NCBI GenBank assembly: GCA_949292205.1
Contig: CASEYR010000007.1
Coordinates: 1-47,530 of the forward strand
Length of the DNA: 47,530 nt
Origin: an uncultured Alphaproteobacteria bacterium
GTDB taxonomy: Bacteria; Pseudomonadota; Alphaproteobacteria; CAAHEQ01; UBA3637
Direction of reading: 5' to 3'
The notes beneath the pieces are model-generated. The model saw only the letters and a program-made list of their open reading frames with translations, made no database searches and had not been told where the DNA came from. Made by a program: the position numbers and the translations under genes. This document shows positions 2,828 through 13,028 of the stretch, piece by piece. The first letter of the stretch is position 1. Each line of letters opens with the position of its first letter.

Positions 2828-4051
2828 ATGTATCAAAGAACTTTATCTCGTCATCTTGACCGATTAACTAAAAATTTTCCGGTATTATTAATTACAGGTC
2901 CTCGTCAGGTTGGTAAGTCAACGTTATTAGAAACTTATATTTCTGATAAATATAATCGTGTTACATTGGACGATTTGAACGAACGAACAAAGGCCATCCA
3001 TGATCCTGCTTTATTTTTACAGGAACATCAACCTCCTGTTTTAATCGATGAAGTGCAATATGCTCCGGAACTTTTTAGTTATATTAAAATATATGTTGAC
3101 CAAAACAGAGATAAAAAAGGATTGTTTTTGTTGACCGGTTCACAAAAATTTCATCTTATGAAGGGAATTCAAGAAACTTTGGCTGGTCGAGTAGCGATAC
3201 TTGATTTATTGGGATTGTCTAATCAAGAAATAAACAATCATCCTGATACTGTTCCTTTCCTTCCAACGGATGATTTTATTGATGAACTGAAAAAACAAAA
3301 AAAATCTCAAAGCACATTGCAAATGGTTTATACAAATATTTTTAACGGTTCTTTCCCTGAACTGGTTAGCAGAAACGGTGAAGACAGAGATATTTATTAC
3401 AGTTCTTATGTAAAAACATATATAGACCGAGACGTAAAAGGTTCTTATAATATATCTGATGCTATCAGATTTAATAATTTTATAAAAGCAGTGGCTGCAC
3501 GAACTGGACAATTATTAAACATTGCAGATATTGCCAGAGACGTATCTATTGATAATAAAACGGCACAATCTTGGTTAAATATTTTGGAAGTTTCCGGTTT
3601 GGTGTATTTATTACATCCTTACTATAATAATATTACTAATCGTATTATAAAAACACCAAAGATTTATTTTTTGGACACAGGGTTATGTGCATATTTAACA
3701 GGTTGGGATGCTCCAAAATCTCTTGAAGCGGGTGCTATGAGTGGAGCGATACTGGAGACATACGTGTTATCTGAAATACTCAAATCATATTGGCATAATG
3801 CTAAAGAACCAAATATTTATTTTTACAGAGATAAAGATGCTAAAGAAATTGATTTTATCATAGAAGCGAATAATACAATTTATCCGATAGAAGTAAAGAA
3901 GACAATGATGCTTGATTCAAATGCTTATAAAAACTTTAATGTACTTGAAAAACTGCAAAAGCCAATAGCAAAAGGTGTCGTTTTATGTTTAAAACAAGAA
4001 GTATCTTTTATTTCTAGAGAAATTGTTGCCATACCTATTGCTTTTATTTAA
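2828..4051 (+). CDS. AAA family ATPase with DUF4143 domain
   Basis: A 407-residue ATPase. The Walker A motif GPRQVGKST is at residues 24-32 and Walker B (PVLIDEVQ) ends with D74-E75. A winged-helix-like middle follows (LLNIADIARDVSIDNKTAQSWLNILEVSGLV), and the C-terminal third (IYFLDTGLCAYLTGW, ANNTIYPIEVKK) is the DUF4143 region, whose (D/E)-x-(I/V)-E-(V/I)-K pattern recalls restriction-like nuclease folds. These proteins are common and mobile in bacteria but lack a settled function. Its base composition is much more AT-rich than the flanking phage genes, and it has its own terminator at 4072. It is best read as cargo inserted between portal and protease. Confidence 0.85.
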   Translation: MYQRTLSRHLDRLTKNFPVLLITGPRQVGKSTLLETYISDKYNRVTLDDLNERTKAIHDPALFLQEHQPPVLIDEVQYAPELFSYIKIYVDQNRDKKGLFLLTGSQKFHLMKGIQETLAGRVAILDLLGLSNQEINNHPDTVPFLPTDDFIDELKKQKKSQSTLQMVYTNIFNGSFPELVSRNGEDRDIYYSSYVKTYIDRDVKGSYNISDAIRFNNFIKAVAARTGQLLNIADIARDVSIDNKTAQSWLNILEVSGLVYLLHPYYNNITNRIIKTPKIYFLDTGLCAYLTGWDAPKSLEAGAMSGAILETYVLSEILKSYWHNAKEPNIYFYRDKDAKEIDFIIEANNTIYPIEVKKTMMLDSNAYKNFNVLEKLQKPIAKGVVLCLKQEVSFISREIVAIPIAFI

Positions 4052-6454: not shown

Positions 6455-6648
6455 AAACCGTTGAAGGTTATCAGGCTTGGGAAGTCTTGCTTAAACTTTC
6501 CGAGCCTAACCTCAGCGAGGCCTTGAAAATAGCGGAACATTTAGGATTTGATATGGCAATAATGAGTGAGTTGTTGCCTGTGGGAATACAGGGAATGAAA
6601 TGTGGACTTGATAACAATAATTCAGAAAACTCCTTTGGAAAAGTGTAA
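6401..6648 (+). CDS. Possible -1 frame extension of the tail chaperone (gpGT-like)
   Basis: The -1 frame relative to the tail tube/chaperone gene is open past its stop and encodes TALKTVEGYQAWEVLLKLSE and then EALKIAEHLGFDMAIMSELLP, which look like real helical protein rather than a shadow. Lambda-like phages make the longer chaperone gpGT by exactly such a -1 slip. The candidate slip site is C AAA AAG at 6400-6406, an imperfect heptamer. No independent start codon with a ribosome-binding site is seen. The ORF runs into the first of the 33-bp repeats at 6631, so its true end has probably been lost. Alternatively it is the remnant of a separate small gene. Confidence 0.4.
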
Positions 6649-6716
6649 TATTAGTGTGAAAAGTCCTTTGGAAAAGTGTGAAATTCGCACTAAAAGTCAT
6701 TTGAAAAAGTGTAAAA
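6631..6716. repeat. Three tandem 33-bp direct repeats, possible IS21-type end
   Basis: The unit TC(C/A)TTTG(G/A)AAAAGTGT(A/G) begins at 6631, 6664 and 6697, exactly 33 bp apart, with diverged spacers that include AGTGTGAAA and a TTCGCACT arm. Repeated CACTTTTCCAAAGGA-type blocks, read on the other strand, recall the multiple transposase-binding sites at the ends of IS21-family elements. No istA or istB gene is present, so this would be an orphan end. It coincides with the abrupt end of phage tail coding. Confidence 0.6.
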
Positions 6717-6821
6717 TAATACTTGAAACCCTTTCCTGGGACAGCATATAAACAAAATGAAGTTATTACAGATATTCCTTACTCTGACCAACTGATATAC
6801 AAGGTATAAAGGAAGGAATAT

Positions 6822-7727: not shown

Positions 7728-8144
7728 CACAATAAATATGAAGATCAGGTCCGTTTATTAGTAAAGACTCTTCCTGCAATAAAAAAGGAAGAATGTTTTG
7801 CCATAAAGGGAGGAACTGCGATTAATTTATTTTGCCTTGACATGCCCAGATTATCTGTTGATATCGATTTAGTTTATCTTCCGGTTGAAGACAGAGAAAC
7901 AACATACAAAAACATTTATACGGCTCTTAACAGGATAAAAGAACAATTGGAAAAATTTGGTTTGACTGTCAGAAAAAGCAACAACGAATCTGTAAAACTA
8001 ATTTGTTCTGAGGGTAAGGCAGAAATTAAAATTGAACCGAATTATACTTTACGTGGAGCTGTTTTTGAACCTACACTTATGGAAGTTTGTGATAAAGTCC
8101 AAAATTTATTCGAGTATGGTCAAAAAATATCCGGGTTTAAGTAG
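7728..8144 (+). pseudogene. Broken AbiEii nucleotidyltransferase toxin
   Basis: The frame reads HNKYEDQVRLLVKTLPAI, CFAIKGGTAINLF and MPRLSVDIDLVYLP. The last two contain the GG-(T/S) and D-x-D motifs of the DUF1814/AbiEii nucleotidyltransferases, which are known to inactivate tRNAs. No ATG, GTG or TTG lies between the in-frame stop at 7707 and the ATG at 7842, which is within the catalytic core. An ATG at 7738 is one base out of frame, suggesting a single-base deletion. The C-terminal two thirds, including the usual GGK(I/L)CAALDR-type helix, is missing: the protein stops at 8144, just before the radical SAM operon. The toxin should be inactive. Confidence 0.75.
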
Positions 8145-8234: not shown

Positions 8235-9149
8235 ATGGAATACAAATATAATACAAATATTGGACGCTTTGAATTAATTAATGATTCTAATTTTAAAGAC
8301 GATATTGCAAAAGCAGAAGTTCCTCTTTCAGTTATTTTACAAATAACTCGGAGATGCCATTTTAATTGTAAATTTTGCAGTGAGGCTACTCGTAATTTAA
8401 CAGATACTTCTTTAGAAGATTTGAAAAAGATTAAAAATAATTTAAAAGGGGTCAAACGGGTCTTCCTATCAGGGGGAGAACCACTTATTAGAAAAGATTT
8501 TGCCGATGTTGTGAAAATTTTTGCAAATGAATTTATTCTAGGTCTTCCAACAAATGCAGTTGCAACAAAAGAACAAACTCAAATTATAAAAGAAAATTTC
8601 AGCCTAGTAAATATTGGTTTTGAGGGACCTTATAATATAACAAATCGCGTTCGTGGAGATTATGATTTAATTATTGATGGAGTAAAAAATTTTATTAAGA
8701 ATGATATTCCTTTTTCAATGACAGCTGTGATAATGAAAAGTTATCTAGAGGATGTTTTATTTATTTGTGACTCGGCAGCTGCTTTAGGTGCTCAAAAATT
8801 AAAACTTGTATTTCCTATTAAAAAAGGAAATGCTGTAAGTATTCCTGATTCTGAATATCCCACTCTTGAAGATGGTAAGATTTTGGCTCAACGGATAAAA
8901 GAGGCAAAAAAAAGGTTAGGATGGAAAACTGTTTTCACTCTTTCAACATGGACTGAACAAACAAATGGCTATTCGTTGTTAATGTATCCTAATGGGGAAA
9001 CATATGCATGGCCTGTGTTAGATAAAGAGGACAAAGTAGAATATTTGGGTAATTTGATTACTGAAGATATTCGTGAAATATGGAAAAAATACAAATATAA
9101 AGAAAATCATTTTGGAAAATATTTAGGAAAAAATATAGATGTGATATGA
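8235..9149 (+). CDS. Radical SAM protein, first gene of an uncharacterised four-gene operon
   Basis: A 304-residue radical SAM enzyme. The CX3CX2C cluster motif is at C41, C45 and C48 (RRCHFNCKFC), and the GGEP SAM-binding motif is at about 80-83. The C-terminal region reads like a SPASM/twitch end (LLMYPNGETYAWPV, then YLGNLITEDIREIWKKY), but the cysteines that would bind a second cluster are missing, so only one [4Fe-4S] cluster is expected. The substrate is unknown. It overlaps the next gene by 4 bp (ATGA). The operon sits inside the broken prophage and is strongly AT-rich. Related MoaA/PqqE-like enzymes modify peptides or small molecules. Viperin-like nucleotide chemistry is possible but not shown. 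Confidence 0.8.
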   Translation: MEYKYNTNIGRFELINDSNFKDDIAKAEVPLSVILQITRRCHFNCKFCSEATRNLTDTSLEDLKKIKNNLKGVKRVFLSGGEPLIRKDFADVVKIFANEFILGLPTNAVATKEQTQIIKENFSLVNIGFEGPYNITNRVRGDYDLIIDGVKNFIKNDIPFSMTAVIMKSYLEDVLFICDSAAALGAQKLKLVFPIKKGNAVSIPDSEYPTLEDGKILAQRIKEAKKRLGWKTVFTLSTWTEQTNGYSLLMYPNGETYAWPVLDKEDKVEYLGNLITEDIREIWKKYKYKENHFGKYLGKNIDVI

Positions 9150-9877
9150 TCGTTATTGAGAAAAAACTTTGTTTAAATAAAAAAAATACGACTATTTTTG
9201 GTGTTGATTTTGAGTGGACAAAAAATTACAAGATCAAAAATGGAAATGTTCCTTTTTGTTTTTCTGTTGTTTACTTTCCTCTTTATGATAAAAATTTTGA
9301 TATCTCTAAAAAACTAGATTTTGGTTTTAAAAGTTTTTATGTAGAAAGCACTAAAGAAGGAGAAAAATTGATACAAAGGGCAAGTGTTTTTTTCGATAAC
9401 GTAAAAAAACATCAAAATAGTATGATTATTGGACATCAATTACATTCCGATTTAGGGGTTCTTAGTAATTACAGTTTTCAAAAAAATCATTCTATAGAAG
9501 AATTTAAATTCTTATGGAAAAATAGAAAAAGTAGCCATTTTTTATTTGATACGCGATATGATATAGACAATATAAATTGCAAGAGTCGACGTTTGGTTGA
9601 TGTGTGTGTGGATTACGGAATAAATGTTATCCAACCAGAAATAAAGGGGTCAATGTCCAAAATGCATAATACTTTTCTACTAAAAAAAGATAGAGCAATA
9701 ATGGAAAGATTATCTGTGATGAATTTGCGACACAGTTTATCAACCGCACTTCTTTACACTTCATTTATACTAGATGAAAAAAGAGAAATAAGAACTAACG
9801 ATATTTTATATAGAAATCTGAAAAACTACTATAATTATGTGCAATCAACAGATTTTAAATCTTTATTATTGAGGTAA
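9146..9877 (+). CDS. DEDD-type 3'-5' exonuclease-like protein with altered Exo III motif
   Basis: A 243-residue protein resembling the DnaQ/RNase T fold. Exo I appears as VDFEW (D21, E23), Exo II as GHQLHSDLGVL (D102) and Exo III as NLRHSLSTALLY with H196. In active DEDDh enzymes an Asp follows that His by 4-5 residues; here the positions are T200 and A201, so the last catalytic acid seems absent unless another residue serves. It could be a nucleic acid-binding or regulatory relative, or a nuclease with shifted geometry. It is coupled to the radical SAM gene by a 4-bp overlap and followed after 2 bp by the next gene. The assignment is from motif spacing only. Confidence 0.55.
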   Translation: MIVIEKKLCLNKKNTTIFGVDFEWTKNYKIKNGNVPFCFSVVYFPLYDKNFDISKKLDFGFKSFYVESTKEGEKLIQRASVFFDNVKKHQNSMIIGHQLHSDLGVLSNYSFQKNHSIEEFKFLWKNRKSSHFLFDTRYDIDNINCKSRRLVDVCVDYGINVIQPEIKGSMSKMHNTFLLKKDRAIMERLSVMNLRHSLSTALLYTSFILDEKREIRTNDILYRNLKNYYNYVQSTDFKSLLLR

Positions 9878-9879
9878 AT

Positions 9880-11094
9880 ATGATTATAACCAAAGATAAT
9901 TTAGATATTCTTAATGATAAAAATATAATCTTGGGTAAAAAAGCAAGATATTTGCTTGAGTTATATAAAATATCAAAGGGGGTTATATTTGATATCCCAG
10001 ATTTTGCAATCATTCCAGGAAATGTTCTAGAAGAGTATAATAGAAAACATCAGCTAACACCAAAGAATACAGAGCAGGATGCTATTAATTTTATGCGCCC
10101 CAATCAAAAAATTGTTGAAAATTACAATCTGTTTGTATCTGACAACTATTCCGAATTAAGTACAGCTTTTGATATAACTTACTCAAATTTTAATCCAAGG
10201 ATTAGAACAAGCATTTGTTTGGATGAAAATCATCCAGATTCTTTTGCTGGAGTAAACCATACAATTGATTGTGAAGAAAATGATAAAAGAAAATTTCTTT
10301 ATTATGCAATACCTCAAGCAATTGCGGGTCTGTATAAGCCTTATTCTAATTGGTATTTATCTAATAAAAACTTAGAAAAAGAAAATCGATATGCTTCTTT
10401 AATGTTTTCCAAATTTGTGGCAAATACATATGCAGGAATTGCACATATATCATCTCATCACGCAGATGTTGTTTTAGGGTTAAATAATATTACAAAATCC
10501 AGAAATTTTTCATTTAATTTTACTTCGTCTTGTAATGATATTCATGAACATAAAAAATTGTTTAATGCTTTAAAATTTATTCGAAATAAAATGAACGAAA
10601 AAGAAGTAGAAGTAGAATTTTTGCTAAAAAATGATGATTCTTCTCAATTAAACATTATGCAAATTAGAGGTGTTCAAAATAATGACAGTTTATTGATGTC
10701 AAGAGAGCTTGATGAATTTCTTTGTAATCGTCAATTAATAAATTTACTAAATAAACCGAATACATCAAATGAACTTATGAAAAATTTAGAAAATATAAAA
10801 AATCCAAGTGATTTTGTATTTATAATCAATCATGAAAACAGAAAAAATATTAAATTTCTAGATGCTACGTCTTTAATAATAGAATTAAATAAAAGATATC
10901 CCAACTCGCCACTTTTTATTATTGCTTCTTTTAATGATCAGCCTCCTTCTACACATTTGATGACTGCCATTAGAGAGGAAAAACTTATTAATTTTAAAAT
11001 GCTTCCTGAAACAAAATCCAGATTGTTATTAAGGCATGATTTAAAATTGCCAATGATGCGAAAATTAAGAGAAAATAATGAAAGGACAATATAA
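9880..11094 (+). CDS. PEP-synthase/PPDK N-terminal-like ATP-binding protein
   Basis: A 404-residue protein whose first ~265 residues follow the PPDK_N ATP-grasp plan: ILGKKARYLLELYKISKG...IPDFAIIPG at the N-terminus (compare LGGKGAxLxxL...VPxGF), IRTSICLDENHPDSFAG at about 108-124 (compare RSSAxxEDxxxxSFAG), and VEFLLKNDDSSQLNIMQIRG (compare the D-x-E-W...LYILQARP end). The swivelling phosphohistidine and PEP-binding domains of true PEP synthases are absent. Instead about 110 residues of unknown type follow (PSDFVFIINHEN, PLFIIASFNDQPPSTHLM). It probably uses ATP on a substrate or partner made or checked by its operon neighbours. Confidence in the fold is moderate. Confidence 0.55.
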   Translation: MIITKDNLDILNDKNIILGKKARYLLELYKISKGVIFDIPDFAIIPGNVLEEYNRKHQLTPKNTEQDAINFMRPNQKIVENYNLFVSDNYSELSTAFDITYSNFNPRIRTSICLDENHPDSFAGVNHTIDCEENDKRKFLYYAIPQAIAGLYKPYSNWYLSNKNLEKENRYASLMFSKFVANTYAGIAHISSHHADVVLGLNNITKSRNFSFNFTSSCNDIHEHKKLFNALKFIRNKMNEKEVEVEFLLKNDDSSQLNIMQIRGVQNNDSLLMSRELDEFLCNRQLINLLNKPNTSNELMKNLENIKNPSDFVFIINHENRKNIKFLDATSLIIELNKRYPNSPLFIIASFNDQPPSTHLMTAIREEKLINFKMLPETKSRLLLRHDLKLPMMRKLRENNERTI

Positions 11095-11095
11095 A

Positions 11096-11422
11096 ATGAA
11101 TTTTATTGATTTAGAACATTTTTTAGATGAAAATTTGTTAAAATTACAAGCAAAGTACGGCTTTAGAAATAAAGAAGATGTGAGTTTATTGGTAAAAAGC
11201 CTTAAGTTATCCGAGGAAGTAGGTGAGTTTTCTGAAAATATATTAAAATATCTTTCTTATCAAAGGAAAGAAAAATTAGATGTAGATATCTTAGAAGAAA
11301 TAAAAGAAGAATACGCGGATGTCATAATTACGGCAAGCCTAATATTAAAAGAGCTAGAATTAGACATATCTGAAGCACTGGCAAAAAAAATTAATAAAAT
11401 TTCAGGACGAGGTGGCGTTTAG
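11096..11422 (+). CDS. MazG-like nucleotide pyrophosphohydrolase
   Basis: A 108-residue all-alpha NTP pyrophosphohydrolase of the MazG type. The metal-binding motif is intact: EExxE as E40-E41-V-G-E44, and ExxD as E72-Y-A-D75, inside the helix pair typical of the fold. Such enzymes cut NTPs or dNTPs to NMP plus pyrophosphate and are used for nucleotide sanitation and in several phage-defence contexts. An ATG at 11078 overlapping the previous gene is possible, but ATG 11096 has AAAGGA upstream. It is the last gene of the operon and is followed by a terminator. It implies that the operon handles a nucleotide. Confidence 0.8.
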   Translation: MNFIDLEHFLDENLLKLQAKYGFRNKEDVSLLVKSLKLSEEVGEFSENILKYLSYQRKEKLDVDILEEIKEEYADVIITASLILKELELDISEALAKKINKISGRGGV

Positions 11423-11440
11423 AAATGGATAAAAGATTTT

Positions 11441-11462
11441 CCCGCTTCGGCGGGATTTTTTA
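11441..11462 (+). terminator. Terminator closing the radical SAM operon
   Basis: CCCGC-TTCGG-CGGGA forms a short GC-rich stem with a UUCG-type loop, followed by TTTTTTATT. It lies about 20 bp after the MazG-like gene and just before the phage NlpC/P60 gene. Confidence 0.75.
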
Positions 11463-11973: not shown

Positions 11974-11984
11974 AAGGATTGCGT

Positions 11985-13028
11985 ATGAAAAATAAAAGAC
12001 AGGAACTTATTTTGCAATATCTTAATCAAACTAAGGAAGCCTCTCGCCAAGATATTGAAGATTTTTTACAAAAAAATGGGATTTTAGGCTCTAAAATCAC
12101 CATATTACGTGATTTGGATGATTTAGCTCAAGAATGTTTGATTGAAAAATCCGGTAAAGCTAAAGCCACCATTTATAAACTTTCATCGCAATCATCATTA
12201 TTGCTTCCCATAGATGTTGAAGCTTATTTTGATATTCCGCAAGACAATCGCAAGATTGCAAGTATTCGTTTTAATTTTGAGATTTTTAATAAGTTAAAAG
12301 GCTTGTTAACAACAATCGAAAAAGATGAATTGCAATCATTAAATGACACCTATAGGCAAAAAAGGCAAAGTTTATCTCCTACGTTATTACAAAAGGAGTT
12401 TGAGCGCTTAACGGTAGAGTTGGCTTGGAAATCATCTAAAATAGAAGGTAATACCTATACTCTATTGGATACAGAACGCTTGTTAAAAGAAAATGTATCT
12501 GCTACGGGAAAAACGGCAGAAGAAACACAAATGATCTTAAATCATAAGAAAGCTTTGGATTTTGTTTTACAAGCCCCTGAATACTATAAGGAGCTTTCCG
12601 TTGCTAAAGTTGAAGATATTCATAGGCTATTAACAGAAGGGTTAAATGTATCTCAAGGCATTCGTAATGCTCGTGTGGGAATTATTGGAACCGATTATAC
12701 ACCGTTGGATAATCAGTATCAAATTAGAGAAGCATTAAATGATTTAATCACTCTGATTAACAAAACCCCAAATCCCATAGAAAAAGCATTAATCGCCGTT
12801 TTGATGATTGCTTATATCCAACCTTTTGAAGATGGGAATAAACGCACATCTCGCATTTTAGGTAATGCGTTATTATTGGCCAATGATTATTGTCCGCTTT
12901 CCTATCGCAGTGTGGATGAAATTGATTACAAAAAAGGTGTTATTCTGTTTTATGAACAAAATAACATTGCATATTTTAAACAGTTGTTTATAGATCAGTT
13001 TAAACAAGCGGTTCAAAAATATTTTTAG
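11985..13028 (+). CDS. Winged-helix Fic protein with His-to-Gln change in the FIC motif
   Basis: A 347-residue Fic protein with an N-terminal winged helix (residues 1-70, ASRQDIEDFLQKNGIL) and a C-terminal Fic domain. The inhibitory helix is present (SSKIEGN, S-x-x-x-E-G-N, around residues 150-156), as in class II Fic enzymes. The FIC motif normally reads HPFxDGN(G/K)R; here it is Q279-PFEDGNKR-287. The catalytic His is replaced by Gln while the phosphate-binding and metal residues remain. AMPylation is therefore doubtful; the protein may bind nucleotide without transfer, or use other chemistry. ATG 11985 was preferred to the in-frame TTG at 11979 because of GAAAGGA spacing. It is flanked by an operator and a terminator, a self-contained cargo gene. 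Confidence 0.85.
   Translation: MKNKRQELILQYLNQTKEASRQDIEDFLQKNGILGSKITILRDLDDLAQECLIEKSGKAKATIYKLSSQSSLLLPIDVEAYFDIPQDNRKIASIRFNFEIFNKLKGLLTTIEKDELQSLNDTYRQKRQSLSPTLLQKEFERLTVELAWKSSKIEGNTYTLLDTERLLKENVSATGKTAEETQMILNHKKALDFVLQAPEYYKELSVAKVEDIHRLLTEGLNVSQGIRNARVGIIGTDYTPLDNQYQIREALNDLITLINKTPNPIEKALIAVLMIAYIQPFEDGNKRTSRILGNALLLANDYCPLSYRSVDEIDYKKGVILFYEQNNIAYFKQLFIDQFKQAVQKYF

Follow-up and report, generated by a model that had tools for sequence, protein, structure and literature searches.

To our knowledge, viperin is among the few immune enzymes common to bacteria and animals, and we know of very few other radical S-adenosylmethionine (SAM) enzymes tied to phage defence. Here, a four-gene operon was analyzed in a stretch of 47,530 nucleotides from an uncultured Alphaproteobacteria bacterium (contig CASEYR010000007.1, assembly GCA_949292205.1), the whole of which is called the window below. 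At positions 8235-11422 of the forward strand, four tightly packed open reading frames (ORFs) encode a radical SAM enzyme (rSAM), a protein of DEDD fold (B), a compact phosphotransferase resembling phosphoenolpyruvate (PEP) synthase and pyruvate phosphate dikinase (PPDK), and a MazG-like nucleoside triphosphate (NTP) pyrophosphohydrolase. A preliminary description of this locus knew of no described system with such a gene set. In line with it, no account of the set was found among the Creative Commons-licensed papers of PubMed Central (PMC), and this rare mobile combination is seemingly undescribed. With a probability of about 0.45, i.e., slightly below even odds, the operon may be read as a mobile nucleotide-modification cassette, composed of an rSAM-B core and of exchangeable phosphotransferase and NTP pyrophosphohydrolase helpers, and plausibly used in defence.

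The first two genes recur together in distant genomes, beyond what would be expected by chance. A first relative of B was obtained by tblastn in Streptomyces phage Gilgamesh (31%, E = 2e-25). In this phage, gp39 belongs to the radical SAM proteins and shares 41% identity with gene 1, gp40 is a degenerate paralogue resembling B (B2), gp41 is B itself, gp42 is a P-loop kinase and gp43 is a NUDIX hydrolase. Profile searches yielded five viral contigs and 29 genomic loci, plus one further patescibacterium, the carriers belonging to Actinobacteria, Clostridia (Ruminococcus, Oscillospiraceae, Eubacterium), Bacilli, Falkowbacteria and a Thermoplasmatota archaeon. Because the family searches were seeded with short conserved peptides, these counts are lower bounds; besides, some of the actinobacterial loci are closely related to one another. 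An intact rSAM gene adjoins B in 29 of the 36 loci carrying a full B (window included), and the pair is found outside Actinobacteria in six loci, i.e., the window and loci of Clostridia, Falkowbacteria and the Thermoplasmatota archaeon. The distances among rSAM proteins correlate with those among B proteins over 28 loci (Mantel r 0.90, with none of 999 permutations as high). When 2.9 million viral contigs were scanned separately with the B, rSAM and kinase profiles, all three scans recovered one identical set of five contigs and nothing else. A Streptomyces radical SAM gene described in PMC12924846 was rejected as a relative, being an unrelated gene that serves as a phage attachment site. In the archaeal locus (L012), where the contig ends after rSAM-B, a gene for a xylose-isomerase-like TIM barrel lies immediately 5' of the pair (L012:5142-5990).

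Around this core, the helper families are exchanged while their role is kept, NUDIX alternating with MazG and the P-loop kinase with the PEP-synthase-like protein. In the 26 actinobacterial and Streptomyces-phage loci, rSAM is present 23 times, B2 25 times (fragmented in L031), the kinase 25 times and NUDIX in every locus; the three loci lacking an intact rSAM are L024, which stops at a contig edge, L031, which holds a decayed copy, and L025, from which the gene is absent. Elsewhere, the gene after rSAM-B encodes MazG in Falkowbacteria (L011) and the P-loop kinase (AAA_28) in Eubacterium (L036); in the window, the PPDK-like protein comes next and then MazG, the PPDK-like protein taking the position that the kinase has in other loci. 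From such swaps, which provide the best evidence available on this point, we infer a nucleotide chemistry. Of the gene set first described, rSAM-B recurs in distant genomes and rSAM-B-MazG in one other locus, but the exact four-gene combination was not seen elsewhere among the loci collected. As co-occurrence is conserved, the gene set withstands the refuting check on this point set out in the preliminary description.

The radical SAM and MazG assignments of the preliminary description held in Pfam scans, gene 4 scoring 25.6 bits with PF03819 (cut-off 22). Its sequence contains EExxE and ExxD motifs, and it matches the MazG protein following rSAM-B in Falkowbacteria with 34% identity over 87 aa. 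The PEP-synthase-like character proposed for gene 3 was retained in part: the motifs GKK, RTS..SFAG, E246..Q261-x-R263 and STH359..RE could be aligned by eye with the PPDK of the host, whereas PPDK_N scored 19.9-21.4 bits, below its cut-off of 27, and the pairwise match with the host PPDK was not significant. PPDK_N was the sole PEP-synthase domain matched in the Pfam scans of this protein, the PEP/pyruvate-binding TIM barrel not being found in its 404 aa. Gene 3 would putatively combine an ATP-grasp PPDK_N-like part with a phospho-His swivel segment, with H359 as the possible swivel residue. No homologue was found in phages, plasmids, genome and viral contigs, or in 42 further genomes of the family to which the window belongs, and gene 3 is so far an orphan.

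According to the proposed explanation, rSAM would alter a phosphorylated nucleotide, or a molecule resembling one, by radical chemistry, while the phosphotransferase would set the substrate or the product to its active phosphorylation state. The MazG or NUDIX enzyme would remove the triphosphate, protecting the host, and B would recognise or edit the modified nucleotide, or a nucleic-acid end bearing it. Carried as cargo by temperate phages and islands, the cassette would most likely defend against other phages. The families of the genes, the co-occurrence of the core, the exchange of helpers with roles kept, the folds and the mobility were established by the analysis; the nucleotide substrate, the part played by B and the defence function are inferred. 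Several observations weigh against this explanation; they concern the affinities of rSAM, the catalytic site of B, the loci in which the parts of the cassette are separated and the comparison of defence neighbours.

Regarding rSAM, its model (predicted local distance difference test, pLDDT, 89.8) was compared with solved structures (VIA). Viperin-CTP/UTP complexes came out on top (Z 23.4, root-mean-square deviation, rmsd, 2.6 over 257 residues, TMt 0.75-0.77), tied with SuiB (Z 23.0) and SkfB (22.4), MoaA being lower (18.5). As viperin and SuiB, a peptide enzyme, lie within 1 Z unit of each other, the fold is no proof of a nucleotide substrate. By sequence, the nearest solved structures are SkfB (E = 8e-14), PqqE and MoaA, viperins being weaker, and the curated viperin model NF038283 gave 31.3 bits for a cut-off of 180; the pVip models of PADLOC were matched in part, over residues 33-142. 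The altered nucleotide initially evoked is supported by a viperin-like fold, tied with that of SuiB, and by the nucleotide kinase or NTP-pyrophosphatase partners, the score with the viperin model being below its cut-off. SPASM and twitch maturases rely on auxiliary-cluster cysteines. In the alignment of 28 rSAM homologues, C41, C45 and C48 are the only conserved Cys columns, the auxiliary-cluster cysteines are gone from the C-terminal SPASM-like stretch (PNGxxxAWP...IW), and the SPASM domain PF13186 scored below cut-off on rSAM. The enzyme may have a viperin/SPASM-type fold devoid of auxiliary cluster, resembling viperin and possibly acting like it, yet outside the viperin family.

The proximity of SkfB and PqqE in sequence, together with the tie of SuiB in fold, would also agree with an enzyme modifying peptides, as in the pathways of ribosomally synthesized and post-translationally modified peptides, whose present neighbours would be incidental. 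We consider this very improbable in view of the 28 homologues without auxiliary-cluster cysteines and of constant partners that are nucleotide-handling enzymes. The rSAM profile also touches BlsE (blasticidin S) and 8wm2/AbmM, another Fe-S radical SAM protein, and DUF5753/helix-turn-helix regulators, typical of Streptomyces accessory loci, flank copies of the cassette. Together with its abundance in actinomycetes, these features could reflect a small cassette producing a specialised metabolite or a signal of nucleoside type, carried by phages as host-fitness cargo and not for defence. Such a role is unlikely, since no recurrence of genes for transport, resistance or tailoring was noticed with the cassette and the core, which is phage-borne, is also present in one patescibacterium and one archaeon.

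For B, no convincing family was found in Pfam, NCBIfam or PHROG, and PDB sequences gave no match. Its model (pLDDT 93.1, predicted template modelling score 0.92) confirms the DEDD-like nature supposed by the preliminary description: as modelled, B has the DEDD (DnaQ) fold and is nearest to the exonuclease domains of family-B DNA polymerases (VIA; Pol alpha with Z 14.8 and P. abyssi PolB with Z 14.4, rmsd 3.2-3.5 over 171-186 residues). The exonuclease domain of Pol alpha is inactive. Residues D21, E23 and D102, the loop KNY[RK]IKNG and the motifs SRRLVDxC, QPE and NxRH show little or no variation, and we know of no DEDD exonuclease family displaying the invariant NxRH and KNYxIKNG of B. The Asp of motif III is missing in all 35 aligned sequences, position 200 being T, A, S or C and position 196 being invariably His. 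According to the sequence register, RHSLSTA falls on the DEDDy pattern of family-B polymerases with T200 at the Asp position; judging from where the structural alignment ends (211 to 330), H196 would be at this position, provided that no gap occurs along the helix. An intact DEDD signature is needed for cleavage (PMC11706625), which renders a plain exonuclease activity of B doubtful, as well as the policing role by exonuclease that had been assigned to it. Judging from the alignment, either the invariant His would replace the motif III Asp or B would bind instead of cutting. A precedent exists in a different protein, the nsp14 proofreading exonuclease, which removes 3'-deoxy-3',4'-didehydro-CMP (ddhCMP), a chain terminator made by a radical SAM enzyme (PMC9415739).

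The strongly basic invariant loop located after DxE, with the invariant D, E, D and H, indicates that the substrate site of B is conserved even though motif III is not. These traits, the fold shared with polymerase proofreading domains and the joint divergence of rSAM and B would suit a system in which rSAM acts on nucleic acid while the catalytically altered DEDD protein keeps a 3' end in place for it, whether of tRNA, of an RNA primer or of DNA, in repair or in self/non-self marking, the kinase and the pyrophosphatase adjusting nucleotide supply or 5' ends. Known NUDIX and MazG members use free NTPs, however, and B also exists alone in genomes without rSAM, which makes action on nucleic acid improbable.

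The separation of the parts bears on the nucleotide-modification cassette as well. In two clostridial loci (L016 and L026), rSAM and B are present with no same-strand kinase or pyrophosphatase directly downstream, and four Bacilli genomes possess B with no rSAM anywhere. The lone B genes of these small Bacilli genomes are located at L019:6947-7708, L021:3695-4456, L022:6947-7708 and L023:6947-7708, and a divergent B member was observed in a patescibacterium (L049:5956-6789). B without rSAM was also found in G625 and L025. In L025 (6935-8828), B-kinase-NUDIX is intact, rSAM and B2 being absent; in L031 (4489-8785), the same three genes are intact, rSAM and B2 being frameshifted and interrupted. 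The occurrence of B without rSAM and the decay pattern of L031 hint that B and the helpers are perhaps useful alone, like a protective half, two such actinobacterial loci being too few to claim it.

The distribution of the cassette is that of a rare mobile element. Leaving aside the starting genomes, B was absent from all 384 genomes of the class and all 397 of the phylum to which the window genome belongs, from 390 genomes of the Clostridia class and from 369 of the archaeal phylum, and it was carried by 1 of 332 patescibacteria. Neither rSAM nor B was found in the plasmid collection, and E. coli genomes gave no match at the DNA level. The viral carriers are four phage genomes of 70-128 kb and one 7-kb viral contig; the Gilgamesh copy sits between the integrase and the portal genes, and other copies adjoin replication-relaxation, transposase and antirepressor genes. 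Phages with altered genomes, such as Z-genome phages, employ deoxynucleoside monophosphate kinases and MazG-type enzymes, and here the kinase and MazG or NUDIX could prepare a modified deoxynucleoside triphosphate for the hypermodification of the carrier phage DNA. This is extremely unlikely, given that most copies are chromosomal, that the window copy lies in a degraded prophage and that the Gilgamesh copy belongs to an integrase-side accessory region.

With regard to defence, the core proteins matched no known-defence model of PADLOC-DB 2.0.0 beyond the partial pVip match of rSAM and a weak PglZ match of B (E = 1.6e-4). Around 16 chromosomal copies in Actinobacteria, the neighbouring ORFs matched 51 PADLOC models, with strong matches to Cas3e, Cas8e, QatA, DrmB and two mad2; control segments taken from these contigs matched 11 models, with weaker hits to generic-looking proteins (TmtA, PycC and RT-Protease_XI, the best E being 7.6e-32), a comparison based on a small sample and rough gene calling in which the hits tied to a locus are Cas3e (L034) and QatA (L020). 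The phage defence proposed in the preliminary description is suggested by the genomic context only. In Streptomyces beigongshangae (L034:9969-14580), a type I-E CRISPR-Cas system starts about 1.1 kb past the NUDIX gene of the cassette, with Cas3e (E = 4.9e-221) followed by a Cse1-like gene.

Going further, the operon could represent an undescribed mobile immune class shared by bacteria, archaea and phages. A distinct viperin-like rSAM would produce a new nucleotide with antiviral action, or a mark on nucleic acid, a B protein with a rewired motif III would recognise or remove this product, and B, kinase and pyrophosphatase would constitute a protective half able to outlive rSAM. This extension is tentative and somewhat unlikely to hold. 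If true, it would reveal a second viperin-like radical SAM family, phage-carried and with a partner of its own that looks obligate, and would suggest that one more antiviral small molecule exists and that the DEDD fold is put to a new use. Owing to the Gilgamesh copy, the cassette can be tested directly in a laboratory phage and its host.

The features of the locus are collected in Table 1. As first described, the four genes are closely packed (intergenic spacing of -4, +2 and -17 nt), AT-rich (26-30% GC, the surrounding kilobases being at 33-49%) and closed by a terminator. The candidate promoter was not substantiated by the promoter scan, which gave 18 sigma-70-like sites vs. 23 expected in shuffled sequences, without excess. 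The AbiE neighbour was recovered through AbiEii, but in truncated form, the PF08843 match at 7752-8108 covering positions 1-127 of the 238 of the profile. AbiEii loses its 3' half right before the cassette, as if removed by the cassette or by a deletion. Other genes around the operon are presumably AbiEi and phage tail genes, as assigned by reading translations. Three 33-nt repeats stand in tandem at 6625-6723, between the tail-tube-like gene and AbiEi. A Fic-domain-like protein (11979-13028) and a DUF4143-type ATPase (2828-4051), likewise read from translations, appear as cargo of the same broken prophage.

Table 1. Features of the operon and of its immediate upstream neighbour, in window coordinates.
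Feature	Position	Strand	Basis or remark
Truncated AbiEii toxin remnant	7752..8144	+	PF08843, E = 4.1e-15; abuts the cassette, context only
Gene 1, rSAM, radical SAM enzyme	8235..9149	+	304 aa; PF04055, E = 7.6e-18
rSAM CxxxCxxC codons (C41-C48), radical SAM cluster	8355..8378	+	sequence; invariant in 28/28
Gene 2, B, DEDD-fold protein	9146..9877	+	243 aa; ATGA overlap with the rSAM gene; predicted by model
B motif I, D21-x-E23	9206..9214	+	invariant in 35/35
B motif II Asp, D102 (GHQxxxD)	9449..9451	+	invariant in 35/35
B motif III region, N193-[LIV]-R195-H196	9722..9733	+	N, R and H invariant; Asp at neither candidate position
Gene 3, compact PEP-synthase/PPDK-like phosphotransferase	9880..11094	+	404 aa; PPDK_N, E = 1.7e-4 on residues 1-299, below cut-off
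Gene 4, MazG-like NTP pyrophosphohydrolase	11078..11422	+	114 aa; alternative start 11096; PF03819
Terminator-like hairpin and T run, closing the operon	11440..11455	+	sequence scan

Compared with known systems, gene 3 shares with PEP synthase, PPDK and rifampin phosphotransferase motifs of the ATP-grasp PPDK_N part, as well as a putative swivel His, and differs from them by its length of 404 aa, the absence of a PEP/pyruvate domain and a score below the Pfam cut-off. B resembles the DEDD 3'-5' exonucleases, i.e., the exonuclease domains of family-B polymerases and the NrnC-type diDNases of genomic islands (PMC11706625), in its fold, its intact motifs I and II and its presence in actinobacterial and clostridial mobile regions, but it lacks the motif III Asp in 35 of 35 sequences and has no sequence match in the PDB. 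The SPASM/twitch maturases (SkfB, SuiB, PqqE) include the nearest solved sequences and share with rSAM the C-terminal SPASM-like stretch, whereas rSAM is devoid of auxiliary-cluster cysteines and its partners handle nucleotides. Finally, viperin and pVip (NF038283; PADLOC PDLC02903/02904) provide the best fold match of rSAM, tied with SuiB, and are, like it, single-cluster radical SAM proteins with a CxxxCxxC motif; defence genes lie close to some copies of the cassette, and some pVip accompany nucleotide kinases, in line with the PADLOC model of viperins associated with kinases. Unlike viperin and pVip, the rSAM cassette comprises a DEDD-fold partner that looks obligate, together with NUDIX or MazG.

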